From Nitrospira defluvii (GTDB lineage Bacteria; Nitrospirota; Nitrospiria; Nitrospirales; Nitrospiraceae), in NCBI GenBank assembly GCA_000196815.1, contig FP929003.1, positions 62,001 through 126,000 of the forward strand: 64,000 bases of DNA, in the 5' to 3' direction. The translations under genes were made by a program, and so were the position numbers. The notes beneath the pieces were generated by a model. That model ran no database searches. It was not told where the DNA came from and saw nothing but the letters and a program-made list of their open reading frames with translations. Of this stretch, positions 12,451-53,357 are shown piece by piece (position 1 is the stretch's first letter; every line of letters begins with the position of its first letter).

Positions 12451-12489
12451 CGTGGGCTCCTTGGGGTTGATCGTTGCGACACCCGTAGT

Positions 12490-12515
12490 AACGCGCTGTT
12501 CAATTGAGAAGCCAA
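12490..12515 (-). promoter_or_regulatory. Copy 1 of a shared upstream motif
   Basis: Read on the minus strand: TTGGCTT, 7 variable bases, then GAACAGCGCGTT. It lies 40 bases upstream of the ATG at 12450. If TTGGCT acts as a -35 element, a 17-base spacer leads to a weak -10-like hexamer (GTTACT here). Identical spacing is seen in three other copies (13107-13132, 13410-13435, 47125-47150). Confidence 0.6.
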
Positions 12516-12547
12516 GCGCGGGTTCGCCTCTTTCTCGATCTTTCTGA

Positions 12548-13069
12548 TCAGGCAATGCGATAGATGCGCTCGCCGCCTTGCGCCTTGTCGGACGTGATGG
12601 TCAGACCGAGTTTTTTCTTGAAGGCTCCGGCGAAAGTGCCGCGCACGGTGTGTGCCTGCCAGCCGGTGGCATCAACGATCTGCTGCACCGTTGCGCCTTC
12701 GGGGCGCTGCAGCATCCGGAGCACTGCGGCCTGCTTGCTGTTCTCGCGGGTGCGCGGCTTGGCCTGCTCGGTAGTGGTGCCCTTGGCCCACGTGGCCTCT
12801 GCTGCCGTCACGGCGGCCTCGATCTCGGGGTCGACGACCAAAGGCGCAGGCGCGGGACGGGCGCGCCCCATCGCGTCGTAGCCCTCGGCGGCGACGAACC
12901 AGTGGGTGCCGTCCGTAGTGATCAGGGCGCGGTTGAACAGGCCGTCGAGCACCTTCTTGCGTGCGCCGCCTTTGATGTTGTCAGGGAACCAGTCGATCTT
13001 GCCGTTGGTGTGCTTGAGGGCGTAGGCCAGGATCGCGTGCTGGGCTGGGGTCAGTTGGGTGGTGGTCAT
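12548..13069 (-). CDS. DUF3489 domain protein (winged-helix-like)
   Basis: 173 residues. The C-terminal ~65 residues (KQAAVLRMLQRPEGATVQQIVDATGWQAHTVRG and GLTITSDK) are the DUF3489 signature, which reads as a winged helix-turn-helix. The N-terminal part (TPAQHAILAYALKHT) is a second helix-turn-helix-like region. The ATG at 13069 has AAGGAG 6 bases upstream; a longer frame to 13132 would translate the regulatory motif. Common in proteobacterial prophages; likely DNA binding, target unknown. Confidence 0.8.
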   Translation of the reverse strand: MTTTQLTPAQHAILAYALKHTNGKIDWFPDNIKGGARKKVLDGLFNRALITTDGTHWFVAAEGYDAMGRARPAPAPLVVDPEIEAAVTAAEATWAKGTTTEQAKPRTRENSKQAAVLRMLQRPEGATVQQIVDATGWQAHTVRGTFAGAFKKKLGLTITSDKAQGGERIYRIA

Positions 13070-34308: not shown

Positions 34309-34532
34309 CCGCCAAGCCGAAACTCTCTCTCCTCGACGACTGGCGGCGGGTCGCGCGCCGCGCCTGGAGCGTCCGCCTGTCTATCGTCGCCGCCATCTTC
34401 ACGGCGGCGGAAGTGGTGGTGCCGCTGTTCGGTGATGTATTGCCGCGCGGTGTGTTCGTGCTGCTGGCCTTCAGCGCCAGCATCGGCGCGGCCGTAGCCC
34501 GCTTGGTCGCGCAGCCCGAGATGCATCGATGA
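34305..34532 (+). CDS. Holin-like membrane protein
   Basis: 75 residues with two hydrophobic helices (about 26-44 IVAAIFTAAEVVVPLFGD and 48-66 GVFVLLAFSASIGAAVARL), a short turn, and a basic N-terminus. This is the two-helix layout of class II holins. It sits directly before the endolysin and overlaps it (ATGA). Confidence 0.75.
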   Translation: MTAKPKLSLLDDWRRVARRAWSVRLSIVAAIFTAAEVVVPLFGDVLPRGVFVLLAFSASIGAAVARLVAQPEMHR

Positions 34533-35029
34533 TCCGGCGGCCGCAAAGACGCACCGTGGCTGCGCTGACGCTGTCCGCCGCCGCGCTGGTGGGCATCGTG
34601 CTGCACGAGGGCTACACCGAGCGCGCGGTGATCCCGGTCAAGGGTGATGTGCCGACCATCGGGTTCGGCACGACATCGGGCGTGAAGATCGGCGACACCA
34701 CCACGCCGACGAAGGCGCTGGCCCGGGCACTCACCGACGTGCAGCAGTTCGAGGGTGCATTGAAGCAATGCGTCACCGTCCCGCTGGCCCAGCACGAGTA
34801 CGACGCGTTGGTGAGCTTTTCCTACAACGTGGGCAGCCGCGCGTTCTGCCAGTCCACGCTGGTCAGGAAGCTCAACGCCGAGGACTACGCGGGAGCCTGC
34901 GCTGAGCTGCTGCGCTGGCGCTTCTTTCAGGGCAAAGACTGCGCGCTGCCCACCAACGCGCGCCTGTGCGGCGGGCTGGCTACACGGCGAGAAGCCGAAT
35001 ACCGGCAGTGCATCGGGGAGGCGTCATGA
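34529..35029 (+). CDS. SAR-type endolysin, GH24 lysozyme
   Basis: 166 residues. Weakly hydrophobic Ala-rich segment at 9-25 after a basic start, as in signal-arrest-release endolysins. The catalytic Glu (HEG, residue 27) follows immediately, then GDVPTIGFGTT and later YDALVSFSYNVGSRAFCQSTL, both GH24 lysozyme blocks. Extra cysteines could regulate activation. It cleaves the glycan backbone of peptidoglycan. ATGA overlaps at both ends. Confidence 0.88.
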   Translation: MIRRPQRRTVAALTLSAAALVGIVLHEGYTERAVIPVKGDVPTIGFGTTSGVKIGDTTTPTKALARALTDVQQFEGALKQCVTVPLAQHEYDALVSFSYNVGSRAFCQSTLVRKLNAEDYAGACAELLRWRFFQGKDCALPTNARLCGGLATRREAEYRQCIGEAS

Positions 35030-35523
35030 GCGTGATTCCGTGGCCATACCGGCTGTTGACCTTTGCGGCGCTCGGAGTCGCCCTGGTTGGCTTTGGCTGG
35101 ATCAAGGGGGCGAGCCACGTTCAAGCGCAATGGGATGCCGCCATCCAGCAACAAGCCCTCCAGACCGCCGCCGCCCGCGAGCGGCAGGCGCAAGCCACCG
35201 TCAAGGTCGTCACCCAGTACGTCGACCGCGTCCGCGTCGTCCGTGAGAAGGGCGACACCATCATCAAGGAAATTCCCGTCTATGTGCCCGTTCAAGCCGA
35301 TGCTGCTTGCACTATCAACCGGGGCTTTGTGCGCCTGCACGACGCTGCCGCCGCCGGTGAGCTGCCCGAGCCCGCCAGAGATGCTGATGCGGCCGCCGCA
35401 GGCATTGCGCTCTCTGCCGTCGCCGGAACACTTGCCGCCAACTACCAAACCTGCCACGAAAACGCCGAGCAACTGAGGGCGTTGCAAGTGTGGGTCGGGG
35501 AGATGACAGGAGGCACCAAGTAG
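35026..35523 (+). CDS. Inner-membrane spanin, Rz-like
   Basis: 165 residues: N-terminal membrane helix (LLTFAALGVALVGFGWIKG, residues 10-28), then a long Ala/Gln/Arg-rich coiled coil (~35-85) typical of Rz i-spanins. A second reading frame inside it (35282-35476) encodes the lipoprotein partner. Together they fuse inner and outer membranes at lysis, which implies a Gram-negative host envelope. Confidence 0.78.
   Translation: MSVIPWPYRLLTFAALGVALVGFGWIKGASHVQAQWDAAIQQQALQTAAARERQAQATVKVVTQYVDRVRVVREKGDTIIKEIPVYVPVQADAACTINRGFVRLHDAAAAGELPEPARDADAAAAGIALSAVAGTLAANYQTCHENAEQLRALQVWVGEMTGGTK
35282..35476 (+). CDS. Outer-membrane spanin, Rz1-like, nested in the Rz gene
   Basis: 64 residues in the +1 frame relative to Rz. 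It begins MCPFKPMLLALSTGALCAC; the lipobox-like L-C-A-C would leave a lipidated Cys. The mature part is proline-rich (TTLPPPVSCPSPPE), as Rz1 proteins are. A second in-frame ATG at 35300 gives a shorter signal peptide. Fully embedded Rz1 genes are well known in lambda-like phages. Confidence 0.7.
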   Translation: MCPFKPMLLALSTGALCACTTLPPPVSCPSPPEMLMRPPQALRSLPSPEHLPPTTKPATKTPSN

Positions 35524-35572
35524 CAAGCCAGGAGTCGTCGTAGACGCCCACTGATTCGAGGATCAAATATAT

Positions 35573-36430
35573 TTAAACGCCATTCTTGACCGTCTGTATG
35601 TCAAAAAGATTTATCTTATTGATCTTCTCCTCGTGAATCACGATGGTCAGCTTGGCCGGATACTTAAAGCGCATTTCACTGATCCTAAACGTCCAAAGCA
35701 TAATCTTCAGTAAATCCTCGTCACTGATGAGCTTATGCCCCTTGATGCGGGTAATGCCAGAACCGAATATTGTAGTTGACACGCTCCTCTGGCCATAGAT
35801 CGAGTTAACTCTATCCCAGAAATTAATTAAGAACTCCAAATATTCCGGCATAGTAAGCACGGCCTTGTTGTCCTCATCAAACTTACTAAATGCGGCAAGC
35901 AAGAATTCCTCGTAAACACATATTGTTCCGATTTTATACCGCTTTTTCTTTCCGGCTCGCCTGTTTTGATTTTCGCCGATTATCTCATCGTCCTGAAATT
36001 GATAATTCTCAATGTAATTGTCCAAATCAGCGACAGGCGTCTTTAGGATTTGCTTTACAAACATGCCATTGACAGATCTACTGGAGATGACTCTTTCATC
36101 GACCAAGGTGTCAAAGTATTCGTTGAAGGCAATCACCTTAAGCCCCGGCTGCTGAAATATATCCCCAGCAACAACATTAACCTCACTCCCTTCGATGTTG
36201 ATTGATACATTCCTGAGTCGATTAGACCAAACCCACACAGCAATATAGACGACGAGGAATGCTGCCACAAAAGCAGCAGCCTTATACCAAAGGCCATAGC
36301 TCGGCGCGGGCAAGCAGTCTTTTGGTATGTCGACAAATGGAAAAACAAAGGAAAGGAAGACACTTACGGCAGTAGCGTACTTGTAGAAGGTAGCTAATAG
36401 CCGTCGGTCAAAGAAGGCCACCTTTGTCAT
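35573..36430 (-). CDS. thsA: Thoeris type II effector: transmembrane-macro protein (ThsA-like)
   Basis: 285 residues. Two membrane helices (about 18-33 and 49-67) are followed by a macro-like domain: GSEVNVVAGDIFQQPGLKVI, then FNEYFDTLVDERVISSRSVNG near 100-120. This matches the ThsA_Macro (DUF6430) pattern as I know it. In type II Thoeris the macro domain senses an ADP-ribose-type signal made by the TIR partner and the membrane part damages the membrane. It lies 25 bases after thsB. Base composition is clearly AT-richer than the flanks. Confidence 0.8.
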   Translation of the reverse strand: MTKVAFFDRRLLATFYKYATAVSVFLSFVFPFVDIPKDCLPAPSYGLWYKAAAFVAAFLVVYIAVWVWSNRLRNVSINIEGSEVNVVAGDIFQQPGLKVIAFNEYFDTLVDERVISSRSVNGMFVKQILKTPVADLDNYIENYQFQDDEIIGENQNRRAGKKKRYKIGTICVYEEFLLAAFSKFDEDNKAVLTMPEYLEFLINFWDRVNSIYGQRSVSTTIFGSGITRIKGHKLISDEDLLKIMLWTFRISEMRFKYPAKLTIVIHEEKINKINLFDIQTVKNGV

Positions 36431-36455
36431 GCTTCACTTCCCTTCATAAGCACAG

Positions 36456-37025
36456 TCAGGGTTTGTAGAAGAAGACCCCGGAATCTCCTTTGGTTCCCAC
36501 CATGAACTTTGCATTGTTAAGCGCCTTCTCTATCACGGATTTCTTATTCGGCACATGGAGAGTCGGCACGGAACTCATTGAGTCACGAAATATTGGAAGT
36601 TTGTCCCAGAGATTCTTTACTGCTTGCTTGAGGGCCTGATTGTCAGCGGTCAGTAGGTCTGACTCAGATGCATACTCGGGATAGACTACGATGACCGGAA
36701 GACCCTGGTCATTAATTCCGTAGTCGATTTCCTCTCTCAATGCTCGTGAGTTGGCAGTAGTAGAACTCAAGAACAGAACGATATTCTTGGAGTTTCGGAG
36801 GCGCTCCCTCAGTCTAGGCTTCAGAGTCGTTTCCCAATCACTCCCGTCACGTACGTTGTATGTTTTGTCATGAGAGTCATTGAAGGGAAAAACCGAATCC
36901 TGCCCCTTCCACATGCGTAGCTGGTTATAGTAAAAAAAATCGCGCGTAGCGTGAGCACCGAGTGCGCTTGGATTGAAGGGCTCGGTAACATAGAAAGCCG
37001 AGTAGTTGCCGTTTCTATATGCCAT
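36456..37025 (-). CDS. thsB: Thoeris TIR-like signalling protein (ThsB-like, DUF1863)
   Basis: 189 residues. FYYNQLRMWKGQDSVFPFND near 28-47 and LRERLRNSKNIVLFLSSTTANSRALREEIDYG near 75-105 are the MTH538-type TIR-like fold, with the glutamate in REEIDYG in the position of the TIR catalytic acid. ATG 37025 is preferred (GGGAG 5 bases upstream) over GTG 37031. TIR ThsB proteins make an NAD-derived signal upon phage infection. First gene of the pair; transcribed away from the DUF499 operon junction. Confidence 0.82.
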   Translation of the reverse strand: MAYRNGNYSAFYVTEPFNPSALGAHATRDFFYYNQLRMWKGQDSVFPFNDSHDKTYNVRDGSDWETTLKPRLRERLRNSKNIVLFLSSTTANSRALREEIDYGINDQGLPVIVVYPEYASESDLLTADNQALKQAVKNLWDKLPIFRDSMSSVPTLHVPNKKSVIEKALNNAKFMVGTKGDSGVFFYKP

Positions 37026-37041
37026 TGTCACTCCCGTTGAA

Positions 37042-37215
37042 AGTTTGGATTTTGAAAAGTAGATCGCAGACCACGACCGACCGCAGCATCACGAAAGCCG
37101 ACCGGTATTTGCCCGCCGTGTAGCAGCTCAATACCTCGGAGAATTATTCCCTGCTGCGCGCATCGAAGATTTGACTCGCGCGCTGTTCTATCGAGTACTC
37201 GTCCAGCATCGTCAT
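37042..37215 (-). pseudogene. Decayed next gene of the defence operon, cut at the Thoeris junction
   Basis: On the minus strand an ATG at 37215 overlaps the helicase stop (ATGA), exactly like a coupled operon gene. It reads DEYSIEQRASQIFDARSRE, then TAA (37144-37146), and continues in the same frame as FSEVLSCYTAGKYRSAFVM and on to VVVCDLLFKIQ. This looks like the start of a conserved helical protein in which a Tyr-like codon became a stop. Protein-like sequence ends where the Thoeris gene begins. Family unknown; I recall similar starts in hypothetical proteins. Confidence 0.65.
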
Positions 37216-39950
37216 CCCGTCCAAGCCGTAGTCATCAGCACTGCGAAGTCTCGCCGTGACAGCACCTCGGAACAATCCCGCCAGTCTTTCTCCGGTGGCT
37301 CCATCGTGCCCGTATAGCGCAGGTCAAATCCCGTCGCCTCTTTCTGAGCATTGATGAACTCGTCCATCTTTTCCCCGAGGGTCTCGATGTCCTCGATCCA
37401 TTCGTCCTTGATAGTGTCAGGGACTGATCCAAACAAGTCGTAGCGATTGCGCATCCGCTCCGACAGGCGTTCGTAGATCTTCTCGTCCACGGTTTGCTCA
37501 TTCACTAGGTTGAGCATATCCACGGTTTCGCGCTTCTGGCCGAAGCGCTTGATGCGTCCGATCCTCTGTTCGAGGCGAGTCGGATTCCACGGCAAATCAA
37601 TATTGATCAAGGTGCCCAGCGTTTGAAGGTTGAGACCTTCGCAGGCCGCATCTGTAGCAACCATGATGCGGATCTCGTGTTCAGCCACCATTTTTTTGAG
37701 CGTTTCCCGCTCGCACGTCACGCTATCGCCACGTTGATACAAACGACTGCGGCCTGCACCAGCGTACAGGCCAATTGCCTCATCCGGGTACCGCGCAGCT
37801 AACTCGTCGGCGACCCACTTTGCCGTGTCGTAGTACTGACTGAAGATAATGACCCCGAGCTCGCGCCACTTTTCTTTTTCCAGGTAATGGATAACGGCGT
37901 TGAGTTTTGGGTCTTCCTCAATGTGCTCTAGGCGACTGATCAGCCGGAGCAAAACCTCGCGCTCTTCGCCGCTTTCAACCTTCAGATCACCTTCTTGCTC
38001 ATCTTCCTCTTGGTGGATCGTCCGGCCCTCCAAAAGCATCCTGGCGGTACTGAGTCCTGCCTGAATGCTGGAGCAAATGCGTTGCTCCATGAGGTTTTTC
38101 ATGAACCCGCCGCCCTTGCCGCGCTTACCGAGTGCCTTACCAAACAAGCGCGCCTCTCGATAGGCTTCACGGAAGTTCTCATTGGTTCGCAGGGCCTTGG
38201 CTTCAAATAGCGCATCGAACCAACGTGGGTCGCCTACAAGCTGGCGATTTGGATGAACGTCGACACCGACCTTAGTCAACAGTCCAGCCTCTTCGAGGCT
38301 GACGCGTTTGCGCAATACGACGTGACGCACCAATGGATTCTCTCGCTGGAATAGGGTGGCACCCGAAATTCGGCGCTCCAACTCATCTTCCAGGATCTCC
38401 CGGGTATCCTCCGTCAGATCTGTAGCTGTCTTGGTGGTTTGCCATTCCCCGTTGACAAGCCCCAAGTCCTGACGAATAGCGCTGAACAGCTTTCTCGCTC
38501 GCGGTTCTTGGGTGGAGTCAACCAGTGGTAAAGGCGATCTCAGCAGTTGCCAAGCAAATCCAACATCAGTGACCTCTTGCTCCCCGGAAAGGATAGGCAG
38601 CACTTCACGAGGCCGGTGCCACGGCGCAAAGTCATTGCCGAGGACAAAGTTGCCTTTGCCTTGATGGAGAATGCCGATCAAGTCCCATAAGTCCTCGGGC
38701 TGGGTCTGAACCGGCGTCGCAGTGCCCAGAAGAACGTGATCTGAGCGCGCCGCAATCTCACGCATGAACGCTAGCAGTTCATTCGGGGAGCCTGCATCCT
38801 TGCCAAAGCCTTGGCGACTGCGCGCCTTGTGGGCTTCATCAAGGATGACCAAACCGAATCGCAGGCCCAGGAGGTGCTGTTTCTCCAGGGAGTCCCGCAT
38901 CATCAGGCCAGTGGAGACAATCCCAATCCGCAAGGGGCACTTGGCTATCTGCTCGCGGCCTGCAGGTGAGATTACGCGTTCATCAGTGTCCAGCCAAACC
39001 TTGCGCAAGGTGTCCCAGCGCGCACAGGGGATCGCCAGCTTATCGATCATCTCTGTCTGCCATTGTTCGCACAGGGTGGCCGGAGCAAAGATCACCACTG
39101 GCTTGCGCGCCTGGTTTTCTCGATCCGCCAGCAAACAAAGTGTCAGCGCTGCGGTACCGAGGGACAGCGTCTTTCCGAGCCCCACCTCATCGGCCAGCAG
39201 CAGCCTCACTACTTTGTGCTGTTGGTGGTGGCGCAGGCACTCGGTGATAAACCCCTGCTGCCAAGGCTGTAGAGACAATCCCTCGCGGTAAAGAGGCGAT
39301 TCGATTAAGGCCGCTGGTGCGAGATTCTCCTCTTCGTCGATCTCGTCGAAGAACACCTCGCGGCGGTAGCCACGCCGATGGACCTCCCGGATGACCACCT
39401 GCGGAAGCGGTCGAGCCGCATTCCACAAAAACTCGAACTCTTCCTCAATCCAGGCGACCCCCTCGGGGGACTCGTCTTCCCACAATATCTCGTAGTGCCG
39501 CTGCCAGCCGCTGCGGGTCTCATTCATCGAGCCGATGAAGCCCAACTTGCGGCCGTCAGCCAGCTCGATGACTCCCGCCTTACCATGCACGAAGCCGCAG
39601 ATGTTGTCTGGAGCCACGCGCACGGCCTGACCATGCTTCTGCAAGAAGGTGTCTAAGCGACGGTAGCGATCTCGATTGAGCAAGGCCTCTGCTTCGATAG
39701 CCTTCTCGTTCCAACGCCCCATCATCTTGGCTTCGCGTAGCTGCGCCACCTTCAGATCGTCGGGGTGGATGTCCACGTTGCAGACAATCTTGACCTCAGG
39801 AATGGTCTCCAGCAGTTCGTTGGCGACCTCAAACAGCGAGCTTGTGAAGTAGCCAGCGATACGCTTATAGCTGCGAGCCCCCTGCAGATGCTGCAACAGG
39901 AAGCTCGCGTCGAGCCGATGGGTCCGGGAGGAGAAGCGCCGGATCGACAT
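37212..39950 (-). CDS. SNF2-type helicase with N-terminal phospholipase D-like domain (defence operon)
   Basis: 912 residues. Residues ~1-185 form a PLD-like nuclease half: FVHGKAGVIELADGRKLGFIGSMNETRSG carries the H-x-K and GSMN parts of a HKD-type site. The SNF2 helicase follows: Walker A ADEVGLGKT near 253, DEAH in ILDEAHKAR near 373, and the C-terminal lobe with ATDAACEGLNLQ and QRIGRIKRFGQK near 780-810. It would translocate on and perhaps cut phage DNA. It lies 4 bases after the methyltransferase gene, with a weak ribosome site. Confidence 0.85.
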   Translation of the reverse strand: MSIRRFSSRTHRLDASFLLQHLQGARSYKRIAGYFTSSLFEVANELLETIPEVKIVCNVDIHPDDLKVAQLREAKMMGRWNEKAIEAEALLNRDRYRRLDTFLQKHGQAVRVAPDNICGFVHGKAGVIELADGRKLGFIGSMNETRSGWQRHYEILWEDESPEGVAWIEEEFEFLWNAARPLPQVVIREVHRRGYRREVFFDEIDEEENLAPAALIESPLYREGLSLQPWQQGFITECLRHHQQHKVVRLLLADEVGLGKTLSLGTAALTLCLLADRENQARKPVVIFAPATLCEQWQTEMIDKLAIPCARWDTLRKVWLDTDERVISPAGREQIAKCPLRIGIVSTGLMMRDSLEKQHLLGLRFGLVILDEAHKARSRQGFGKDAGSPNELLAFMREIAARSDHVLLGTATPVQTQPEDLWDLIGILHQGKGNFVLGNDFAPWHRPREVLPILSGEQEVTDVGFAWQLLRSPLPLVDSTQEPRARKLFSAIRQDLGLVNGEWQTTKTATDLTEDTREILEDELERRISGATLFQRENPLVRHVVLRKRVSLEEAGLLTKVGVDVHPNRQLVGDPRWFDALFEAKALRTNENFREAYREARLFGKALGKRGKGGGFMKNLMEQRICSSIQAGLSTARMLLEGRTIHQEEDEQEGDLKVESGEEREVLLRLISRLEHIEEDPKLNAVIHYLEKEKWRELGVIIFSQYYDTAKWVADELAARYPDEAIGLYAGAGRSRLYQRGDSVTCERETLKKMVAEHEIRIMVATDAACEGLNLQTLGTLINIDLPWNPTRLEQRIGRIKRFGQKRETVDMLNLVNEQTVDEKIYERLSERMRNRYDLFGSVPDTIKDEWIEDIETLGEKMDEFINAQKEATGFDLRYTGTMEPPEKDWRDCSEVLSRRDFAVLMTTAWTG

Positions 39951-39954
39951 TCAC

Positions 39955-42918
39955 TTAGGCCCCAAACCGCAGGTTCTTGAGGCGTGCCCCCAGCACTTCA
40001 GCACCGGCGCGGACTTGCTCTTCCGGGGCTTTGCGTTCAATAAAGGCCAACAAATCCACCAGCAGTGAGCGGACCTCGAGGAAGTCGGCCATTTCGGCCT
40101 GCAATTGGCTGACGATGGCCTGCGGTTCGGTTTCCGCCAACACCTGTTGCACGCCAATGATCAAGCGCCCGAGTCGAGTGGCACCGAGCTCGGTGCTGTC
40201 GGTCAAGTCGCGGGAGGCAAACTCGGGCACGCGCTTCAGTCGAGCTTGATTGGCCGCCATACTGCCCATCACTCGGCTGTAGTCCTCAACCCGGAAGGCC
40301 TTGGCAAAGTTCTGATAGTTGTCGAGCTTGGCCGCGCCCGTAGTTTCCATGTCCATCATGCGCAGCATGAAGCGCTCGATACCCGTCAGCTTGGCCCAGG
40401 TGTCGGCTGCCAGACCCTCGGGCACCAGTAGACTGTTGGCCGCTTCTGCCGCCTGTTGGACGATTTCATCGACCACTGTGACCTCGCCGCGCACGCGTGG
40501 GCGCAGTGCGAAAGCAGTCACGTCCTCGCCACCAATTTGCGTATAGGCCGTCAGTACCTTAAGCGCGGCGGCGTAACCTGCCATCTGCAAGTCGGAGTCG
40601 TTGAAAACGGGCTCGCCGTGTTTGCTCTTCACCTCGTCGTTGAGGTGCATCATCGTTTCAATCTGACGCTGCACTTCGCTGCGCACGGCAGGAAGGATGC
40701 GTTGCTTGAAGCCTGCACGATCACCTGCAGCACGCTTCTTCAGCATCAGAATCACGGTGCCCTGTACGTAGCCACCTTTCTTCAACTCGGACGTCGTCTC
40801 GGTGGCGATGTACCAGGCTGCCACGACCTGCAAGCCAGCAGCCCAGAAGATGCCGACCATGTCCGACCAAACACCCGTGTCCTGGTGGGTGAACATCACG
40901 CACTGCATGCCGTTGTCGGGCATGTGATCCGCCATCGCCTTGTAGGCGGCGACCATTCCGCGCCGGAAGTCCTCACCCGAACCCTTGATGGCAAGTGCGC
41001 GGCGTGAATCCCACACCCACTCGTCAAATGGCTTGGGTGGGTTCTTGCGCAGCCAGGCGATGAAAAACTCAGTGATCTCGTGGTAGTTCACCGCGTCGGC
41101 ATAAGGCGGATCGGTGATCCAGAGCTCACAACTCTGCGTCGGTCGCTCCGCAGGCGCAGACACGATGGAGCGCTCCACGGCAGGCAGTGGGGCATCCGCC
41201 ATCTTGAACGAGGAGGCCCCGAAGCCAGCCCACGCGCGCGTTGCGTAGTTATAGAAAGTGTTGAGGGCTTGGTTAGAGAAGACGCCGACAGGGCCTCCCA
41301 ACCCGCCACCTTGGCTGGGCTTCCACCGACTCAGCTTGGCATTAAAGTCTGCTGCCTTGGCAACGTTTAACCAGCCAAGTGGAGCCGATGGAGAACTCTT
41401 CCAGGCTTTCAGGGTGATCGCTTGTATGAGGATTTGTCGCGCATTGAACAGATGGTGCCAATGCGTCCAGCCGCGCGTGCGAATTGGCTCGTCGGTCTTG
41501 TCCCCTGGCTCGATGGCCATATCCGGTGCGAGCCCCTCTGCCTGCCATTGGGCTAGATTGTTGGCGACCAGCTTTTCAACTTTCTGCTCGCGTGCGAGGT
41601 CGGCCTCGGTCACCGTGGAGAAATAGGTGATCTGCCGCGACGCATTGATGGACTTCTTGGTGATCCACTGGATGGCGTAGAGGCGCTCCTGAAAGATGTC
41701 ATCGGGTCGTGGATGAAACTCATCTTTCTCCCAACGACGCAGGCGATTGCCGGTATTGCCATCCGCATCACGGAAATCACCGCGCAGCGTCTTGATCGGT
41801 GAGCGATAGGTGCGACCGTTGAGGGTGTAGACCATGTCCCCGTCTTGTACGGTGCCCTTATCGGCAGCCGCGATCTGTGCTGCAGATGCTCCCGTGACGA
41901 CTTCGATGTCGAAACGCTTGTTCTTCTCGTCAGGGATGAGCTTCGCAACCGCGCCTTGTTTGGGCGAGATCACCCAACTCGGCGAGAGCGGAATCATCCA
42001 CCCGGTTTCAGGACAACGCGTCTCCAGACAATAAAGGTACGCCTTGGCACGGTTGCCTTTCTCGTCATGTTCGACGCCTAGTTTGGTGATCTCCTTGTCG
42101 ATCACATCAAACACAGCCTGTTGATCCCGATCAATCTCTGCCCGGCGCTCGGGGGAGGCTCCGATGACATTGAGTGCGCCCCAGGTCAGCATGCACGCAA
42201 TCGGGTTCAAATCGGAGGCATAGGCGTCGCAGCCAATGCGTGCTGCTTCAAAGGGAATCGAACCACCGCCACTGAAGGTATCACCGGCCCTCGGCCGATG
42301 GCCGTAGCGCAGCATGCCCAGTTGTTCAACCAGTTCGGCAATGTTGTTGGCGTTGATGCCTAAATGCGCGTAATGCTGGTTAACGGCCTCCCACGCCGGA
42401 GCGTAAAGCCATTCCTGATCCACTTCTTCGGGGCGTTTGCCCAGACCGGCCTTTTCCTCGTAGCTACCAAAGGTCACCAATGCTCTGCGATAGAGCACCA
42501 GCTTGTCATCGTCGGTGATGTCGCGCCGCCAGCCCCGTCCGGAAAAATAGCGCTCGGGGTCGCTGATGGGGATCAGTTCCTGCAAGCGCGTCGCGGACAG
42601 CGCGTTTTCAGCTAGCGCACGCCTTGCGAGGCTTTCCTCATCGAAGGCCATCAACTTCTCGAACACCGCGAGGTCTTGTTCAGGGTCGTCAGTCGCGGGC
42701 AGCAGGCTGCCAAGCACGATGGCGCGCACCAGGATCAGAGGTTTACGCCCTTTCCAATAGGAACCCAACCCAGTCAGCGTCTGGGCAGCAACCGCTTTAC
42801 GTTCGGCTTGCGCCTCGAACGAGACTTTTTGCGCAGGGAACACCGATTCAATCAGGGCCGGTGCGTCCTTGAGCGCCAGCGGAACTAGGGGAGTTGTTGT
42901 TCTTACCGCTTCATTCAT
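39955..42918 (-). CDS. DUF1156 adenine-specific DNA methyltransferase (defence operon)
   Basis: 987 residues. Motif I is DTFSGGGSIPFEAARIGCDAYASDLNP near residues 218-245, and motif IV DPPYADAVNYHE sits near 605. The DUF1156 N-terminus (LIESVFPAQKVSFEAQAERKA) and the long insert between motifs fit this anti-phage-associated family. It probably marks host DNA at N6-adenine so that the helicase/ATPase partners spare it. Gap of 3 bases to the DUF3780 gene and 4 to the helicase. Confidence 0.88.
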   Translation of the reverse strand: MNEAVRTTTPLVPLALKDAPALIESVFPAQKVSFEAQAERKAVAAQTLTGLGSYWKGRKPLILVRAIVLGSLLPATDDPEQDLAVFEKLMAFDEESLARRALAENALSATRLQELIPISDPERYFSGRGWRRDITDDDKLVLYRRALVTFGSYEEKAGLGKRPEEVDQEWLYAPAWEAVNQHYAHLGINANNIAELVEQLGMLRYGHRPRAGDTFSGGGSIPFEAARIGCDAYASDLNPIACMLTWGALNVIGASPERRAEIDRDQQAVFDVIDKEITKLGVEHDEKGNRAKAYLYCLETRCPETGWMIPLSPSWVISPKQGAVAKLIPDEKNKRFDIEVVTGASAAQIAAADKGTVQDGDMVYTLNGRTYRSPIKTLRGDFRDADGNTGNRLRRWEKDEFHPRPDDIFQERLYAIQWITKKSINASRQITYFSTVTEADLAREQKVEKLVANNLAQWQAEGLAPDMAIEPGDKTDEPIRTRGWTHWHHLFNARQILIQAITLKAWKSSPSAPLGWLNVAKAADFNAKLSRWKPSQGGGLGGPVGVFSNQALNTFYNYATRAWAGFGASSFKMADAPLPAVERSIVSAPAERPTQSCELWITDPPYADAVNYHEITEFFIAWLRKNPPKPFDEWVWDSRRALAIKGSGEDFRRGMVAAYKAMADHMPDNGMQCVMFTHQDTGVWSDMVGIFWAAGLQVVAAWYIATETTSELKKGGYVQGTVILMLKKRAAGDRAGFKQRILPAVRSEVQRQIETMMHLNDEVKSKHGEPVFNDSDLQMAGYAAALKVLTAYTQIGGEDVTAFALRPRVRGEVTVVDEIVQQAAEAANSLLVPEGLAADTWAKLTGIERFMLRMMDMETTGAAKLDNYQNFAKAFRVEDYSRVMGSMAANQARLKRVPEFASRDLTDSTELGATRLGRLIIGVQQVLAETEPQAIVSQLQAEMADFLEVRSLLVDLLAFIERKAPEEQVRAGAEVLGARLKNLRFGA

Positions 42919-42921: not shown

Positions 42922-43554
42922 TCATTCGTTCCCAAATAGGTCCAAGGTCGGGCGGTCGCTGTCGTCGCCCGCGCGTTGACGCCGCGCCTTGGGTTGCAGC
43001 AGTTCGCTTTGTGCGACGTCGCCTAGCGCGTGGCGCAACGCCAACCGCCAACCTTTGTCACTGTCGTTGATGCCGCCTGTGCTCATGGCCGTCATGCCAA
43101 AGAGCCACCAGCGCTCTTCGGGGCGCAGCGCCAGCCAATTCCTCACGGCGACCGGCACTTTCTCAATCTCCATGTGTTCCACGGCCCACGCGAGGACACA
43201 GAGCTCCTTGCCCAACAGTCTGTCCACTGGGTTGTCGCCGACTTTCCAGGCGCTAGGCTTGAGCCCGTGCCCATTGAGCCGGGCATTGAATGCGCGCTGA
43301 ACTTCTGAGCGGATGGCCGTCCAGCGTGGTCGATCCAGCAACACGCGGTCGATAACCGCGTGCTCATCGGCGGTGGCTTGCATGCCGAGGTACTCACTTA
43401 TCTGCACGCGCCCGGTGTTGCTCCGAGGAATGATGACCTTGAAGTGATGCGGGTCCGAGGTGGCAGGCACGCCAAAGCCCAGCGTAGGGTGCAGACTCTT
43501 CTGCCCGACCGCTTTGCTTTTTGCCGCGCTGCTTGCCGCCTTGGATTTAGTCAT
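42922..43554 (-). CDS. DUF3780 protein (defence operon)
   Basis: 210 residues, starting at ATG 43554 with AGGAG upstream; the longer frame to 43659 would overlap the DUF499 gene. Lys/Ala-rich beginning, then TLGFGVPATSDPHHFKVIIPRS, EHMEIEKVPVAVRNWLALRPEERWWLFGMTAM, and a charged end. The family is known only by its place next to DUF499 and DUF1156 genes; no catalytic residues can be named. Likely an accessory or bridging subunit. Confidence 0.8.
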   Translation of the reverse strand: MTKSKAASSAAKSKAVGQKSLHPTLGFGVPATSDPHHFKVIIPRSNTGRVQISEYLGMQATADEHAVIDRVLLDRPRWTAIRSEVQRAFNARLNGHGLKPSAWKVGDNPVDRLLGKELCVLAWAVEHMEIEKVPVAVRNWLALRPEERWWLFGMTAMSTGGINDSDKGWRLALRHALGDVAQSELLQPKARRQRAGDDSDRPTLDLFGNE

Positions 43555-43558
43555 CTCT

Positions 43559-46500
43559 TTAGTTCTCCTGAATAACGTCGCCGGGCTTGAGCTCAATGCC
43601 CACCAGCTTGGCGAACTCTTTGGCAGCAAATCCGGTATCGAACTGGATGCCATCGGCAATGGTGATGGCGACCGGCGCTTGGTCTTCGTTCAACACCTGA
43701 CGAAGGCTGTTCACCACACCCTCAATCATTGCTGCGGTTACTTCTCGCTCTTGAAAGCGAATGGTCACAGTGTTTTCACCCTCGCCAATCTCAATGCGGA
43801 CACCCTTAAAGCGAGTGCCCGGCTGATCACGGAAGCGGTTGATGACGCCATAGACACGGTCAGTGGTGTCGAGCGCGACTCGCTTGGATTGCAGCTTGGC
43901 TGGCTTGGTGTCAACAATCTGAACCGTCTTGTCGCCACTTGCAGGAACCTGAAAGTCCGCTGTCTTGTTGGCTTCACCAGCGCGTGCATAGACCAAGAGG
44001 CGTACCGCTTGAGGCCCGATCTCGAACGGCCCCTCGTAGGGCGTGCCGTCCTTGGGATTGGAACCATCCAGCGTGTAGAACAGATCTGCCTTGGGCGTGC
44101 TCGCCAGGGTGATGCGCCGCTTGTCAGCGGCTGGATCAACCTGGTGGCGAATCTTGAGATCGGCAGTCCACCGAACAGGCGCACCGGTTTCGTACTGGCC
44201 GGTCTGATCTTTAGCCAGGAAGTAGAGCGTGCCTTCTCCGGTCGTGAAGCTATCGAGATCGTCCACCGCTTTCCCGGTAACCAGTTCCTCTGGCCGGGTT
44301 GCATAAACGACCATTGGGCTTTCGCCTGCGTGCCGAGGGGTGAGACTCAAGATGGTCTCGCCGGTGTCGGGATGGCTACCGACCACGGAGACGTTGACAG
44401 TGGTCTTGTCTTTGGGGAACGGTCCTTTTTCGACATACCCATCCTCACCCAATCGCCAGCGACCCTGCTTCAGTGCCTCCGTCTTGAGGGTGTCCATACC
44501 GCCGCTACCGGGCATCCAGGGCCAAACGGGATTGCTCTTGGCACGGCTGACGACGTCCTTCCACGGGGTGCGCCGGTTGTCCTTACCTGATGGCCAGAGG
44601 TATTCCTCAGCCATCGCAAAGTATTCATTAAAGTTCTCGGCGAGATCGGCTGCGAGTTTGTAGTTGGCGCGCGGACTGGCGAGCAGGGATTCGATCTGAG
44701 CCTCAGCGGATTGATCTCCTTTACCCAGCTTCAACCCGTTGTCGATGGTGACTGGCGCGAGAAACTCGCGCCCATCCAGATCATCAACACTGGGGAAGTA
44801 GACGCGGTTGTATGCTGCCGACAGGGCTTTCTCGAAGCGATCTTCGGCTTCTTCCATTCGGTCGCGTGCTTCCTCAAAAAGCGTGTCGCCAGCCTTCAGC
44901 CGTTTATGAATCTGCTCAATGGCATAGAGCTCCCGCAGGCGATCCTCGACCGCATCAGCCATATGACTGTCCTGGCCTGTAAGCACAAGCAGGTTGTTCT
45001 TCTCCTGCTGGTAGTCGAAGAAGTTCTGCAGTTCGCTCGGTGGCACCTTGCCGTCTGGCTTGATGACAATTAGCGTTCGCGGCCCGGTGAGCTTCAGCTC
45101 GTCTAGCTTTGGCAGTACCTGCACATCCTGATAGGCGTTGCGCCGCTCGGGCTGCAGGATGCCAGTCAGTCGGTTAATGAGCGCCTGGTCAACCTTGGGC
45201 TGCGGTACTTCCTTGGCGTTGCGTTCGATTTGGCGCGAGAGGTTTTCGGTTTCCTTGATGAAGAAACGCTGATCCTCGCGGTGGAGATACCACGCGTGCT
45301 CACGGAGTCGTTGCAGCGCCTGGAGAAATTCATCCGCCTTGCGGTTGGGCGCGGCCAAGAACTCGATGATCTCGCTGTCGGACAAGCCAATTCGCCCACC
45401 GACTGCGCGAGACAAGGACGATGCCAATAGCAGCGTCATCACTTGCTGGGCGGCATCGCCGTCCAGTTCGTCATCGATGGTTTCCGCGATGGCATTACCG
45501 TTGTCAGCGATGTCGCGGGTAAGAGCTGGCATCAGCTTTGGCGCGATGCGTTCGATCTCGTCTTTGACTTGATCGTCATTGAGTGCCAAATGCTGGGTGC
45601 CGATGAGGAATACGTCGTCTGCCTCCCGTTCCGCAACACTTTTCAATAAGCGGGCGGTGAACTGCATCAAGCCACGGGTCTGGCGGAAGCCTTCGTTCTC
45701 TTTGAACAGGGCGACCAGATGCTTGAATGAGGGATGGAACGGATAGGTCTCGCGAACTTGCTCGGCAATCTGTTCCAGGCTGGCGGCGACAATGTAGCCC
45801 CCATCTTCGGCCTTCTTGATCTGCTGGGCGTATTCGTCGGCGATGTCGGCGATGACGCGCTCGTCGGGAAGTTCGTCAATCAGTCGCTTCTTGAGGATCT
45901 CGTAGATCTCATTACCGGCCAATTGCACCGGCGTGATCGTCATTGCCTGGCGGCGGGTCTCCTGCTGCAGATTGGAAATGGCATCCCCGAGGGCCTTGGT
46001 CTGCGCTTTGTAGCTGCCGGAGAGGTTGGCGACGACGATGGCACAGTTGGGCAGCTCAAGCGCTGCACTCATCAAGCTGCTGAGACTGTAAACCACCATG
46101 TTGGCGAGCGTGCCCTGACCAAACACCTGGGTGCTGGCGTTGTCGAGGTAGGGGGGCAACTCGTCGAGCAAGATCAGTGTGGGCTTGTCCCCAATGATTT
46201 CTTTCCACTGACGTTGGTCGACCGCTTTGGGACCATTGACCCAGTAGGGCTTGATGGCCTCGGCTTCGCCTAGCTGCGTCGCGATTTCGCCCCAGATGTA
46301 GTTGTCGGGGTTGTTGCGACCGTTGAAAGCGGCGATGCGGGCCTGACCGAAATCCACGCGATCACTCAAGTCAGTGGCAAGGACTTCCGGACGCAGATGA
46401 GGATGCCGCGCCAGCAGACCAAGTGCGATCATCATGTGCGTCTTACCGCCACCCATTGCTTGGGTCAGTTCGAAGACGGCCTGATCAGACTTACCGGACA

Positions 46501-46681
46501 GGCGCAGTAGGCCTTCGCGGAAGAGTTGCTCCATGCCGTGCGTGACGAAGTTGCGCGAGAAGAACTCTCGACCGTCACCCGCGTCATGAATCAGATCGGC
46601 CAGGTTCTCGATGCCCTGACTCATCCGGTAGTCTTGAATGACCGGATTGAACCGGCAGGCCTGCTTAACCGTCTTGATCAT
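43559..46681 (-). CDS. DUF499 P-loop ATPase (defence operon)
   Basis: 1040 residues from ATG 46681 (MIKTVKQACRFNPVIQDYRM). Walker A MGGGKTHMMIALG near residue 72 and Walker B LILLDELPPYL near 165. The C-terminal half contains a domain with LFYTLDGSNPKDGTPYEGPFEIG, like a chitobiase/HYR-type beta module. The protein is comparable in size and role to BrxC/PglY ATPases. ATGA overlap with the upstream RHH gene; the long frame above 46681 is not used. It likely couples sensing to methylase/helicase action. Confidence 0.85.
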   Translation of the reverse strand: MIKTVKQACRFNPVIQDYRMSQGIENLADLIHDAGDGREFFSRNFVTHGMEQLFREGLLRLSGKSDQAVFELTQAMGGGKTHMMIALGLLARHPHLRPEVLATDLSDRVDFGQARIAAFNGRNNPDNYIWGEIATQLGEAEAIKPYWVNGPKAVDQRQWKEIIGDKPTLILLDELPPYLDNASTQVFGQGTLANMVVYSLSSLMSAALELPNCAIVVANLSGSYKAQTKALGDAISNLQQETRRQAMTITPVQLAGNEIYEILKKRLIDELPDERVIADIADEYAQQIKKAEDGGYIVAASLEQIAEQVRETYPFHPSFKHLVALFKENEGFRQTRGLMQFTARLLKSVAEREADDVFLIGTQHLALNDDQVKDEIERIAPKLMPALTRDIADNGNAIAETIDDELDGDAAQQVMTLLLASSLSRAVGGRIGLSDSEIIEFLAAPNRKADEFLQALQRLREHAWYLHREDQRFFIKETENLSRQIERNAKEVPQPKVDQALINRLTGILQPERRNAYQDVQVLPKLDELKLTGPRTLIVIKPDGKVPPSELQNFFDYQQEKNNLLVLTGQDSHMADAVEDRLRELYAIEQIHKRLKAGDTLFEEARDRMEEAEDRFEKALSAAYNRVYFPSVDDLDGREFLAPVTIDNGLKLGKGDQSAEAQIESLLASPRANYKLAADLAENFNEYFAMAEEYLWPSGKDNRRTPWKDVVSRAKSNPVWPWMPGSGGMDTLKTEALKQGRWRLGEDGYVEKGPFPKDKTTVNVSVVGSHPDTGETILSLTPRHAGESPMVVYATRPEELVTGKAVDDLDSFTTGEGTLYFLAKDQTGQYETGAPVRWTADLKIRHQVDPAADKRRITLASTPKADLFYTLDGSNPKDGTPYEGPFEIGPQAVRLLVYARAGEANKTADFQVPASGDKTVQIVDTKPAKLQSKRVALDTTDRVYGVINRFRDQPGTRFKGVRIEIGEGENTVTIRFQEREVTAAMIEGVVNSLRQVLNEDQAPVAITIADGIQFDTGFAAKEFAKLVGIELKPGDVIQEN

Positions 46682-46872
46682 GAACGCTCTCCACTCTTGT
46701 TCTCGGTTTCGGAGTCGGGGATGGCAATGCCTCGCTGCTCGCAGTAGCCACGAATCAAGACCTCGATCATGTTCGCGATGGAGCGATGCTCCGCGTGAGC
46801 TGCGACGCGCAATGCCTCCTTCAAGCTCGGATCGATCCGAAAGGTCAGCGTGGCGGTTTTGCTGTTGGCCAT
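46678..46872 (-). CDS. Ribbon-helix-helix (Arc/CopG-like) regulator
   Basis: 64 residues from ATG 46872. KTATLTFRIDPSLKEALRVAAHAEHRSIANMIEVLIRGYCEQRG is a clear ribbon-helix-helix: one strand, then two helices. AGGAG precedes the ATG. It overlaps the DUF499 start by 4 bases, so it leads the operon and probably represses it by binding the phased repeats at 46889-46915. Confidence 0.8.
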   Translation of the reverse strand: MANSKTATLTFRIDPSLKEALRVAAHAEHRSIANMIEVLIRGYCEQRGIAIPDSETENKSGERS

Positions 46873-46888
46873 AGCCTCTCCTGACTCC

Positions 46889-46915
46889 ACTGCAAATGTA
46901 CTGCATTCTACAGCA
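46889..46915 (-). promoter_or_regulatory. Candidate operator of the defence operon (phased hexamer repeats)
   Basis: On the plus strand, ACTGCA at 46889 and 46900 and ACAGCA at 46910, spaced 11 and 10 bases, one helical turn apart. They lie 17 bases upstream of the RHH start. Ribbon-helix-helix dimers typically bind such tandem short repeats, so autoregulation is likely. Confidence 0.55.
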
Positions 46916-47124
46916 TTGCTCATCCTCCAACAAGAAGTCGGCGTCTGCCGTCAATCGTGCGGGGGTTGGTCGGGCAGGAGCGAAGAACTGCGACGTGGCA
47001 CCCCTGGCTTGGCGAAAAAGCTGCGCGCCAACGCCAACCTTCTTGGAGGGGTGGCTTGAGGCGAGTGGAACCATGAGGAATGCCATTCAGGAGTCGTGGA
47101 CCGTAAGGGTGCAGGGACTCCATG

Positions 47125-47540: not shown

Positions 47541-47558
47541 AAGACTATATTAAGTCTT
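47541..47558 (+). promoter_or_regulatory. Candidate promoter/operator of the toxin-antitoxin operon
   Basis: AAGACT (47541-47546) and AGTCTT (47553-47558) form an inverted repeat around TATATT, a good -10-like hexamer, 23 bases before the antitoxin ATG. An extra AAGACT lies at 47530-47535. Phd-type antitoxins usually bind such palindromes to repress their own operon. Confidence 0.55.
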
Positions 47559-47580
47559 GCAGGATCAAGGGAGTAAGACC

Positions 47581-47868
47581 ATGCGCTATTCGTCTCAAGT
47601 CAAACCCATCAGTTATCTGAAGGCGAACGCCGCCGAAGTGCTGACGCGGTTGTCCGAGCAACGTGAGCCCTTGGTCATCACGCAGAACGGCGAAGCCAAG
47701 GCTGTGCTGCAGGACGTGGCGTCGTTCGAAGAAACTCAAGAGACCCTGGCGCTGCTCAAGATCTTGGCGCTTGGCAACCAGGATGTAGAAGCCGGTCGAG
47801 TCAAGCCGGTGGCCGACGTGGTGAACCGCCTGCGGGCCAAGCGGGTGGATGCCGGCCGTGATGCGTGA
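47581..47868 (+). CDS. Phd/YefM-family antitoxin
   Basis: 95 residues from ATG 47581 (AAGGGAG upstream). YSSQVKPISYLKANAAEVLTRLSEQREPLVITQNGEAKAVLQDV is the Phd/YefM DNA-binding and toxin-binding pattern. Its TGA and the toxin ATG share one base (TGATG), the coupled arrangement of such pairs. It neutralises the ParE-like toxin and represses the operon. Confidence 0.88.
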   Translation: MRYSSQVKPISYLKANAAEVLTRLSEQREPLVITQNGEAKAVLQDVASFEETQETLALLKILALGNQDVEAGRVKPVADVVNRLRAKRVDAGRDA

Positions 47869-48209
47869 TGGTGACGAAACCGAAACGCTACGAAGTCCTG
47901 CTCACCCGGAGCGCTGAACAAGATCTGGAATCCATTCACAACTACATCGCGGAATTCGACTCCCTGGCACACGCCAACGGCCTTCTTGATCAGCTGATGC
48001 GGGTCGTAGAAGGTCTGGCCCGGTTTCCAGAGCGTGGCAGTTATCCAAAAGAACTTGCGGCTCTGGGCATCGAGGAATACCGCCAGACTGTGTTCAAGCC
48101 CTACCGGGTGATCTACCGCGTCATGGGCAGGCAAGTCGTCATCTATCTCATCATCGATGGACGGCGGGATATGCAGTCCCTGCTGGCCCGACGATTGCTC
48201 GGTGCTTGA
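47868..48209 (+). CDS. RelE/ParE-family toxin
   Basis: 113 residues. YEVLLTRSAEQDLESIHNYIAEFDS, then LARFPERGSYPKELAALGIEEYRQTVFKPYRVIYRVMGRQVVIYLIIDGRRDMQSLL, is the ParE fold: central strands with conserved Arg/Tyr and a C-terminal DxRRDM block. ParE toxins poison gyrase; RelE relatives cut mRNA. ParE is favoured by the missing RelE catalytic set, but this is uncertain. It stabilises the island or acts in abortive defence. Confidence 0.85.
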   Translation: MVTKPKRYEVLLTRSAEQDLESIHNYIAEFDSLAHANGLLDQLMRVVEGLARFPERGSYPKELAALGIEEYRQTVFKPYRVIYRVMGRQVVIYLIIDGRRDMQSLLARRLLGA

Positions 48210-48761: not shown

Positions 48762-51179
48762 ATGAGCATGAATGAGGCGGACACCCGCTACCACCTCATC
48801 GATCCCGTCTTGCGCGAGAAGGGCTACGTAAGCCGCGAGTGCATCACGCTGGAGACTGTGCTCACTCCAGCACCGGTTGAACCGAGCGGCCCCAAGGGTC
48901 GCAGGCGTAGGGGGCCTGGGCGTACCGACTATCTCCTGTGCGTCCAGGTAGGCGATATGCCGAAGGCTCTGCCCGTAGCCGTGCTCGAGGCCAAGAAGGA
49001 AACCGACGATCCGCTCAAGGGTATGCAGCAAGCGCGCGGGTATGCCGACACGCTGCGCTTCAACGTAAAGTACGTCTTTGCCACCAACGGCCACAGGTAT
49101 GGTGAGTATGACCGCTTCACGAAATTGATCAACGGTCCATTTCAGTTCAGCGATTTTCCCGCGCATCCGGATCTCACGGCACGGTACGCCAAAGACAGTG
49201 GCATCGACCTGACCAGACCCGAAGCCACCATGCTGTTCCAGGCCGACAGTCCGGCATGGTCGCAGAGTCGCTACTATCAGGACGCAGCCATCCGTGCGGC
49301 ATTCGCGAAACTTCTGCGCGATGGACAGTCCGGCAAGCCCCCGCGCGTGCTGCTCACGCTCGCCACAGGGGCCGGCAAGACGATCATTGCTACCAACCTG
49401 TTGTGGCGCCTCGCGCAGGCCGGGCAGCTACCTAAGCCCGCCCTGTTCTTATGCGATCGAGATGAGCTGCGCACCCAGGCCTACAACAAGCTCAGCGCGG
49501 CATTCGGAGCCAATGCTCGTATCGTCGAAACGGAGGGGGGCCAGAACGCGGCCAGGAACGCCCGCATCCATATCGCTACCTACCAAACTCTGGGCTTGGA
49601 CGACGGCAATCCGACGGACGGTGGTTTCGCCAGCTTCCTCACCGAACATTACGGTCAGGATGCCTTCAGCGTCATCATCATCGACGAATGCCACCGCTCG
49701 GCCTGGGGGCGCTGGTCGGAAGTGCTGCGGCGCAATCCCAATGCCATCCACATCGGCCTGACGGCCACCCCGCGCAAACTGGAGGAGTCAGACAAGGCCA
49801 GCAAGGAAGACCAGGAGATCACCGCCAACAACCGCCAGTACTTTGGCGAGCCGGTCTATGAATACACGTTGATTCAGGCTCAGGAAGACGGCTACCTGGC
49901 TGCCTGCGAAATCGTCAAGCGGAAGGCCAGTATCGACAGCGCCGCGTTCACGAAGGAAGAAGTGCTTAAAGCCGGGGCCAAGAACATCAAGACCGGCAAG
50001 CCGCTCACCGAAGCCGATCTGACCAAGGATGAATACACAGGCAAGGATTTCGACGATGAACTCTTCATCGAGCTGCGAACCCCCAAAATGTGCGCAGACC
50101 TATTCACACTGTTGTGCGAGAACGGCGGGCCGGAACAAAAGGTCATCATCTTCTGCACCCGCGAGATCCATGCCGACCGCGTGGCGCAGCACATGAACAA
50201 TTTCTATGTGCGCTGGTGTCGGGAGAACGGGAAGGAGCTCAAGGACCATTACGCCTTCAAGTGTATGGGTGGGGCCAACAACGGAGCCGACCTCATCGAA
50301 CCGATGCGCGGATCGAGTGAGCGCGCCTTCATCGCCTGTACCGTGGATTTGCTGGAAGCCGGGGTAGACATCGAGCGTCTGAATGCCGTGGTGTTCTTTC
50401 GCTATCTGCAGTCGCCCATCAAGTTCTACCAGATGGTCGGACGCGGCACGCGCATCCACGAGGAAACGCAGAAGTACAAGTTTTGGCTCTACGACTACAC
50501 CGATGTCACCAGCCTGTTCGGCACGGAGTTGATTTCCAAGCCGCCGCGACCTGGGGGCGGGGGCAAGGGTGGCGGTGAAGGGCCTGGTGGCGGCGGCGGA
50601 GACGACGGCCCAGCCGTGGGAGAGATCGGCGGACAGCGCGTTATCGTATACCCGCAGGGCCGGTTCATTCTCACCTGCCGCGAGGGCCGCGACCTGCCAA
50701 TTCCCGTGGACGAATATCGTCGCGAGATGATCCAGCGCGTCTTGTCGGAAGCGCATAACCTTGACGAATTCCGTCAGCTCTGGATCGAGGCACAGAAGCG
50801 CCGCAGCCTCATCGACCACCTGCTGGGCGACAACTTCAGCCCGGATGTCATCCGGGAAATCGACCAGATGACCGACTTCGACCTCTACGACTTTTTCGGC
50901 CACCACGGCTACCACGCCCGAGCATTGAAGCGCCCGGAACGTGGCGCGCTGTACATCAGCGGCAACCAACCTTGGTTTGCCGACATGGACCCTCAAGCCG
51001 GCACCGTACTCAAGGGGTTGGGACACCAGTTCGCAGCAGGCGGCACAGATGCGTTGGAAACCCCGGCACTGTGGGAAGTACCCGAAATCAGGCTAGCCGG
51101 CGGACTCGATGTGCTGCGCGCGCTCGGCAGACCGACGGACGTCATGCGCGAGGCGAAGGGAAGGTTGTTCGGGGTATGA
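48762..51179 (+). CDS. hsdR: Type I restriction enzyme, R subunit
   Basis: 805 residues. The N-terminal nuclease domain (DYLLCVQVGDMPKALPVAVLEAKKE, PD-ExK-like EAKK) is followed by a SF2 helicase: Walker A ATGAGKTII near 207, DECH box IIIDECHRSAWGR near 306, and QMVGRGTR near 562. A Gly-rich linker (about 600-620) leads to an EcoEI-type C-terminal domain. It translocates and cuts unmodified DNA. Two starts are possible (48762 or 48768); ribosome sites are weak. ATGA overlap with hsdS. Confidence 0.92.
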   Translation: MSMNEADTRYHLIDPVLREKGYVSRECITLETVLTPAPVEPSGPKGRRRRGPGRTDYLLCVQVGDMPKALPVAVLEAKKETDDPLKGMQQARGYADTLRFNVKYVFATNGHRYGEYDRFTKLINGPFQFSDFPAHPDLTARYAKDSGIDLTRPEATMLFQADSPAWSQSRYYQDAAIRAAFAKLLRDGQSGKPPRVLLTLATGAGKTIIATNLLWRLAQAGQLPKPALFLCDRDELRTQAYNKLSAAFGANARIVETEGGQNAARNARIHIATYQTLGLDDGNPTDGGFASFLTEHYGQDAFSVIIIDECHRSAWGRWSEVLRRNPNAIHIGLTATPRKLEESDKASKEDQEITANNRQYFGEPVYEYTLIQAQEDGYLAACEIVKRKASIDSAAFTKEEVLKAGAKNIKTGKPLTEADLTKDEYTGKDFDDELFIELRTPKMCADLFTLLCENGGPEQKVIIFCTREIHADRVAQHMNNFYVRWCRENGKELKDHYAFKCMGGANNGADLIEPMRGSSERAFIACTVDLLEAGVDIERLNAVVFFRYLQSPIKFYQMVGRGTRIHEETQKYKFWLYDYTDVTSLFGTELISKPPRPGGGGKGGGEGPGGGGGDDGPAVGEIGGQRVIVYPQGRFILTCREGRDLPIPVDEYRREMIQRVLSEAHNLDEFRQLWIEAQKRRSLIDHLLGDNFSPDVIREIDQMTDFDLYDFFGHHGYHARALKRPERGALYISGNQPWFADMDPQAGTVLKGLGHQFAAGGTDALETPALWEVPEIRLAGGLDVLRALGRPTDVMREAKGRLFGV

Positions 51180-53355: not shown

Positions 53356-53357
53356 AC

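Follow-up and report, generated by a model that had tools for sequence, protein, structure and literature searches.

PD-T7-3 is one of the systems selected for their ability to protect E. coli (Vassallo et al. 2022, PMC9519451), and it has been described as a single-gene system that had not turned up in defense islands (as cited in PMC10799925). A protein with a structure resembling that of PD-T7-3, BxaP, is encoded by a gene that type 3 BREX operons carry optionally, is protective alone, and is probably abortive (PMC10799925). Type-2 BREX-related (BR) systems carry many auxiliary effectors beside their cores, according to the account of Rakesh and Krishnan (2026, PMC12839542), where Thoeris, TIR, PD-T7, BxaP, and GIY-YIG are not named as partners in the main text. 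At the hotspots of P2-like phages, related prophages carry differing defense genes at a single shared position (PMC9519451). PD-T7-3, Thoeris, Type-2 BR systems, and prophage defense hotspots are each known already. What appears to be undescribed in the literature cited here, as a variation on an established theme, is a PD-T7-3 gene joined to a DUF499 operon and replaced there by Thoeris.

The stretch of DNA analyzed here, which we call the window, comprises 64,000 nucleotides of Nitrospira defluvii (contig FP929003.1, positions 62,001 to 126,000). Like the Type-2 BR systems set out in PMC12839542, the window encodes a DUF499 ATPase with an Fn3-like region, a DUF3780 protein, an adenine methyltransferase, and a PLD(HKD)-helicase together in one operon (Table 1). 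These four genes, the core of the system, are adjacent, co-directional, and of full length, and all score above the NCBIfam equivalog cut-offs. In the helicase, a PLDc_2 domain spans residues 19-176 (E 2.6e-11), with HxK at residue 122 and GSMN also present; a search of the helicase for the strict HxKx4D spacing found none. Behind the helicase lies a decayed frame that the earlier note, made from the sequence alone, had counted as the sixth gene of the operon; with four core genes present, it would be the fifth. The frame is followed by adjacent thsB and thsA genes, both full length, and then by the lysis module of a prophage. To the left of the lysis module are genes for tail proteins, a tape measure protein, capsid, head protease, portal, and terminase; the prophage is siphovirus-type.

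The locus differs from the described systems in several ways. The decayed frame belongs to the PD-T7-3 family by profile, but the copy in the window is truncated and interrupted by a stop, and the family stands here at the end of an operon of several genes. Within type 3 BREX, BxaP is encoded between PglXI and BrxHII, whereas the gene in the window was last, after the PLD-helicase, and has been lost. The Thoeris pair directly follows the DUF499 operon, keeps a fixed distance from the prophage lysis genes, and takes the place of another defense gene. In contrast to the P2-like hotspots, the place adjoins siphovirus-type lysis genes, and exchange occurs at a point past the final core gene of an operon with several genes.

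Table 1 Positions of the operon, remnant, Thoeris, and prophage features in the window, and of intact PD-T7-3 genes in the closest relatives.
Feature	Sequence	Coordinates	Strand	Evidence or remark
DUF499 ATPase	Window	43559..47086	-	NF042962 1547.7 bits (cut-off 1200); P-loop GGGKT; Fn3-like domain
DUF3780 protein	Window	42922..43659	-	NF042961 287.2 bits (cut-off 200); true start probably later than first codon
DUF1156 adenine methyltransferase	Window	39955..42918	-	NF042963 1384 bits (cut-off 1000); DPPY motif
PLD-domain helicase	Window	37212..39950	-	NF042964 1223.6 bits (cut-off 1100); HxK, DEVGLGKT, DEAH, and GSMN motifs
ATGA overlapping helicase stop	Window	37212..37215	-	Not conserved in relatives
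PD-T7-3 remnant	Window	37046..37209	-	Codons 1-55 of ~433, counted from start codon of intact relatives
TAA in-frame stop	Window	37144..37146	-	Codon 22 from conserved start, 24 from ATG at 37215; sense codon in intact relatives
Left junction, PD-T7-3 homology to Thoeris cassette	Window	37040..37050	-	blastn similarity to three relatives stops at 37046-37051
thsB, TIR-like, full length	Window	36456..37025	-	PADLOC PDLC00421 E 6e-78; alignment with relatives; GGGAG precedes ATG
thsA, membrane/macro-domain effector, full length	Window	35573..36430	-	PADLOC PDLC00413 E 6e-119; Pfam ThsA_Macro; alignment with relatives
Right junction, in last codons of Rz-like gene	Window	35487..35523	+	Similarity ends at 35487 (L003), 35496 (L089), ~35510 (L092)
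Prophage lysis module	Window	34529..35523	+	Phage lysozyme 34529-35029; Rz-like spanin 34966-35523
Intact PD-T7-3	L002 (Stutzerimonas chloritidismutans AW-1)	11443-12744
Intact PD-T7-3	L003	12742-14043
Intact PD-T7-3	L004	12742-14046

The decayed frame is a remnant of PD-T7-3 and not a member of the family able to act. Read through its stop, the 65-residue product matches positions 2-56 of the 432-position PADLOC PD-T7-3 profile (PDLC04108, E 1.2e-20), far beyond chance, so the earlier note was right to see a protein-like frame here. An intact PD-T7-3, P0001, has a single match in the window, at 37209-37045 (89% identity, E = 2e-25; next best E = 0.7). Pfam and NCBIfam scans of the remnant found no credible family, and a RavZ_cat hit (E 0.045) was set aside as noise. 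By blastn and by per-base comparison, homology to PD-T7-3 stops near base 163 of the gene, equivalent to window position ~37046, which is within a few bases of 37042, where the earlier note had ended the frame. The remnant thus retains 55 codons with one stop, compared with an open frame of ~430 codons in full-length genes. Missing from it is the RX4-6H HEPN-type motif, which is assumed to be catalytic in the PD-T7-3 family by extension from HEPN proteins in general. In relatives, this motif reads RHLAAH and occupies residues 116-121, past the cut, so even if the stop were ignored, the remnant could not function as a HEPN protein. PD-T7-3 is homologous to the proteins in PDB entries 9wxf (12 chains), 9wx2, and 9wwz, which are named Dandelion or Dandelion-hepn; a literature search found no paper describing Dandelion.

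Intact forms of the gene are found behind the same helicase, which bears out the reading of the frame as a decayed gene. A helicase scan limited to one genome per species yielded 80 operons, and the three closest to the window (L002, L003, and L004, with helicases 98-99% identical) each carry an intact gene that, in all three scanned, matches PD-T7-3 over positions 2-429 with E ~1e-168. A fourth intact copy occurs on a viral contig (L086), behind the same operon. An intact downstream gene matching both sides of the stop, the check that the earlier note had proposed, is therefore present in the four closest operons. The intact genes have 433-434 codons and start 2 bases past the helicase stop. 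In the window, the frame that opens at the ATGA at 37215 consists of 23 codons, TAA, and then 34 open codons to 37042, exactly as the earlier note had described it. In the intact relatives, the helicase stop is TAA and the ATG of the gene corresponds to window position 37209. The ATG at 37215 exists only because the helicase in the window ends in TGA, and by comparison with the start at 37209 used by the relatives, it is probably not the ancestral start.

Alignment with L003 shows what now occupies the place of the missing part. Window positions 47178-37046 align with L003 2775-12905 at 97% identity, and 35487-33195 with L003 14146-16455 at 89% identity, with the order and orientation of L003 kept on both flanks; the second block holds the prophage lysis module. 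Between these blocks, L003 has PD-T7-3 codons 57-433 and ~100 bp, where the window has thsB and thsA (about 35488-37045). The proposal that a gene was lost at the Thoeris junction is borne out by this synteny, with Thoeris standing where the lost part would be. The rest of PD-T7-3 is nowhere in the 4.3-Mb genome, where searches found neither a C-terminal piece nor a second copy; we therefore reject an insertion of Thoeris within PD-T7-3 and conclude that Thoeris replaced the lost part. The GC content is 45% in the Thoeris cassette, 58% in the operon, and 64.5% in the prophage. We consider it highly probable that the stub is what remains (codons 1-55, at the 5′ end) of an accessory PD-T7-3 gene that once closed a prophage-borne DUF499 operon, and that the stub decayed after Thoeris had replaced the rest. 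In the history that we propose, a foreign, AT-rich thsB-thsA cassette would have replaced everything from about codon 56 as far as the border of the prophage lysis module. Plasmid Thoeris loci, compared as possible donors of this cassette, match it in thsA and thsB only and not in their flanks, and no donor was found among them.

The exact Thoeris junction is a single known example, found neither in viral contigs nor in 28 other genomes of the genus. This lone occurrence, together with the resemblance of the prophage and operon to those of Proteobacteria in a Nitrospira host, could point to an assembly chimera or sequencing error, in which case PD-T7-3 would be intact in the real genome or Thoeris would lie at a locus of its own. 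However, the genome is a single contig, the flanks follow L003 on both sides, the remnant differs from its relatives by several changes beyond the stop, and the genome has no second copy of the gene, and we regard such an error as very unlikely. The helicase DNA of the window operon is 94-98% identical to that of proteobacterial copies, and the tail genes have up to 97% protein identity to viral contigs, which, as sequence identities, suggests recent cross-phylum transfer or mis-assembly.

After the replacement by Thoeris, the stub appears to have decayed, acquiring the stop and an excess of amino-acid changes. In the 56-codon remnant, the changes found only in the window comprise 5 that alter an amino acid, 4 that are silent, and 1 stop, while those in the 912-codon helicase comprise 3 that alter an amino acid and 21 that are silent (Fisher p = 0.02 for the excess in the remnant). 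One of the changes removes a conserved tryptophan, kept in 8/8 close relatives and in relatives from Agrobacterium vitis and Pantoea. For some of the differences in the stub, which adjoin the junction, allelic variation may be the cause instead of decay. The stop may have arisen before or after the truncation. A stub retained as a leader for thsB translation or transcript processing, or as a peptide of ~21-23 residues, might account for the frame overlapping the thsB start by 11 bases if the stop were absent, and for the lack of any promoter-like site found upstream of thsB. We judge this to be extremely improbable, as thsB has its own GGGAG, the stop removes coupling, amino-acid changes gather faster in the stub than in the helicase, and the arrangement is a single example.

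The earlier note had taken the frame for a further subunit of the system, and in this it was partly correct: an operon gene was lost at the junction, but the distribution of the gene argues that it was not a DUF499 subunit. PD-T7-3 is carried by 3/80 genome operons and 1/7 viral loci, all in the closest clade, rather than by related operons in general. With P0001 as the query, no copy was found in the other 77 genome operons, although ~10 loci end too near the helicase to tell. PD-T7-3 genes 78-81% identical to P0001 also occur in four loci (L094-L097) behind another helicase, which best fits the BrxHI and HmaA models. In these loci the similarity begins sharply at the PD-T7-3 ATG, the helicase and PD-T7-3 frames touch or overlap, and a phage lysozyme gene adjoins in the opposite orientation. 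Standalone relatives are found on an A. vitis plasmid, between trbB and traG, and on a Pantoea plasmid, near tail genes. From its absence elsewhere, its association with another helicase, and its standalone occurrence, the DUF499 system should work without PD-T7-3, and the lost gene is, on these sequence comparisons, a portable, HEPN-type accessory and not a core subunit.

If the lost gene were instead an essential DUF499 subunit, the system in the window would be crippled and Thoeris would be its rescue or a mere passenger. Such a role would agree with the start of the intact genes 2 bases past the helicase stop, as for a co-translated gene, and with their presence in 4/4 of the closest operons. 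It is very unlikely, however, given that the other genome operons fetched show no copy, including those of many isolates with all four core genes, that PD-T7-3 is also found with another helicase and alone, and that the helicase of the window has gained 3 changing versus 21 silent substitutions. The small number of amino-acid changes in the core genes of the window indicates that these genes are still under selection or are very recent. With core genes above the equivalog cut-offs and their motifs retained, the core is expected to work without the lost gene. The DUF499 system of the window, which the earlier note had suggested might be crippled, is therefore probably not, its four core genes being full length.

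We surveyed the position directly downstream of the helicase in 76 operons, from genomes and viral contigs and including a few duplicates, that had at least 1 kb of sequence past the helicase. In 45/76 operons, a co-directional frame that is 100 codons long or longer starts within 150 bp, with several singletons that look spurious. Recurrent families at this position are GIY-YIG/PDC-S14 (11 loci), PD-T7-3 (4), and Mrr-related proteins (4), followed by a DpnII/MboI-type restriction endonuclease, GmrSD, PDC-M41A, and a UvrD-like protein at two loci each; L091 encodes a patatin together with a CBASS cyclase. Differing accessory genes thus occupy the same place behind closely related cores. Lysozyme or other relatives of the lysis and tail module of this prophage are found at 12/80 genome loci and 7/7 viral loci. 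Taken as sequence comparisons, these observations support repeated exchange downstream of the helicase, with the window as one case, and the window looks like the exchange of a backup effector at this slot. The L002 and L003 operons offer a further comparison: their helicases differ by 7%, and their PD-T7-3 genes by ~10% in the first 100 bases and by ~1% after base ~102, a pattern that we read as an independent recombination point inside the 5′ part of PD-T7-3. Varied defense-type genes are also seen directly past the PLD-helicase in L015, L013, L021, L088, L091, L012, L040, and other loci.

A broader model, which we offer tentatively and judge to be nearly as apt to hold as to fail, is that prophage-borne Type-2 BREX-related operons have a recombination slot immediately behind the PLD-helicase that swaps second-line effectors (PD-T7-3, Thoeris, CBASS, Mrr, GmrSD, GIY-YIG, and DpnII/MboI-type nucleases) as cassettes under operon transcription, the breaks falling within the previous accessory gene. 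The window would then be a frozen exchange event, and PD-T7-3 and Thoeris would be functionally interchangeable partners of one core. In such an arrangement, the core methyltransferase, ATPase, and PLD-helicase could provide a first line resembling restriction-modification, in which, following PMC12839542, the methyltransferase would mark self DNA and the DUF499 ATPase and PLD-helicase would restrict unmarked DNA. PD-T7-3 could formerly have provided a HEPN-type, abortive second line, which Thoeris may now fill through a TIR signal and then its membrane/macro effector. Thoeris is probably transcribed with the operon, because the interval between the helicase and thsB contains no minus-strand promoter-like site and has terminator-like sites at chance level only, and it would be translated from its own ribosome-binding site. 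In the window, an anti-phage gene has given way to an unrelated one at a set position after an intact DUF499 core, and a relative syntenic on both sides preserves the alternative state; the window thereby offers a testable case for exchangeable backup effectors in BREX-like systems. It also links PD-T7-3, the function of which is unsettled and for which structures of Dandelion homologs have been solved, to DUF499 operons and to cargo adjacent to prophage lysis genes.

The surroundings of the operon include other genes of interest. A tmRNA gene (L113 11351-11701) lies ~7.8 kb left of the window, to the left of recombinase-like genes, and is a possible integration site; in the search for prophage attachment sites, the window contained no repeat of its 3′ end, and no direct repeat that was convincing came to light. 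Two neighboring phage genes at 9254-11901 (+) each encode a DNA methyltransferase with a fused ParB-like domain. A pair encoding a Phd/YefM antitoxin and a ParE toxin lies at 47557-48209 (+), immediately upstream of the DUF499 operon. A Type I restriction-modification locus (R, S, and M) occupies 48762-55301 (+), where a DUF1016/YhcG nuclease gene separates S from M.
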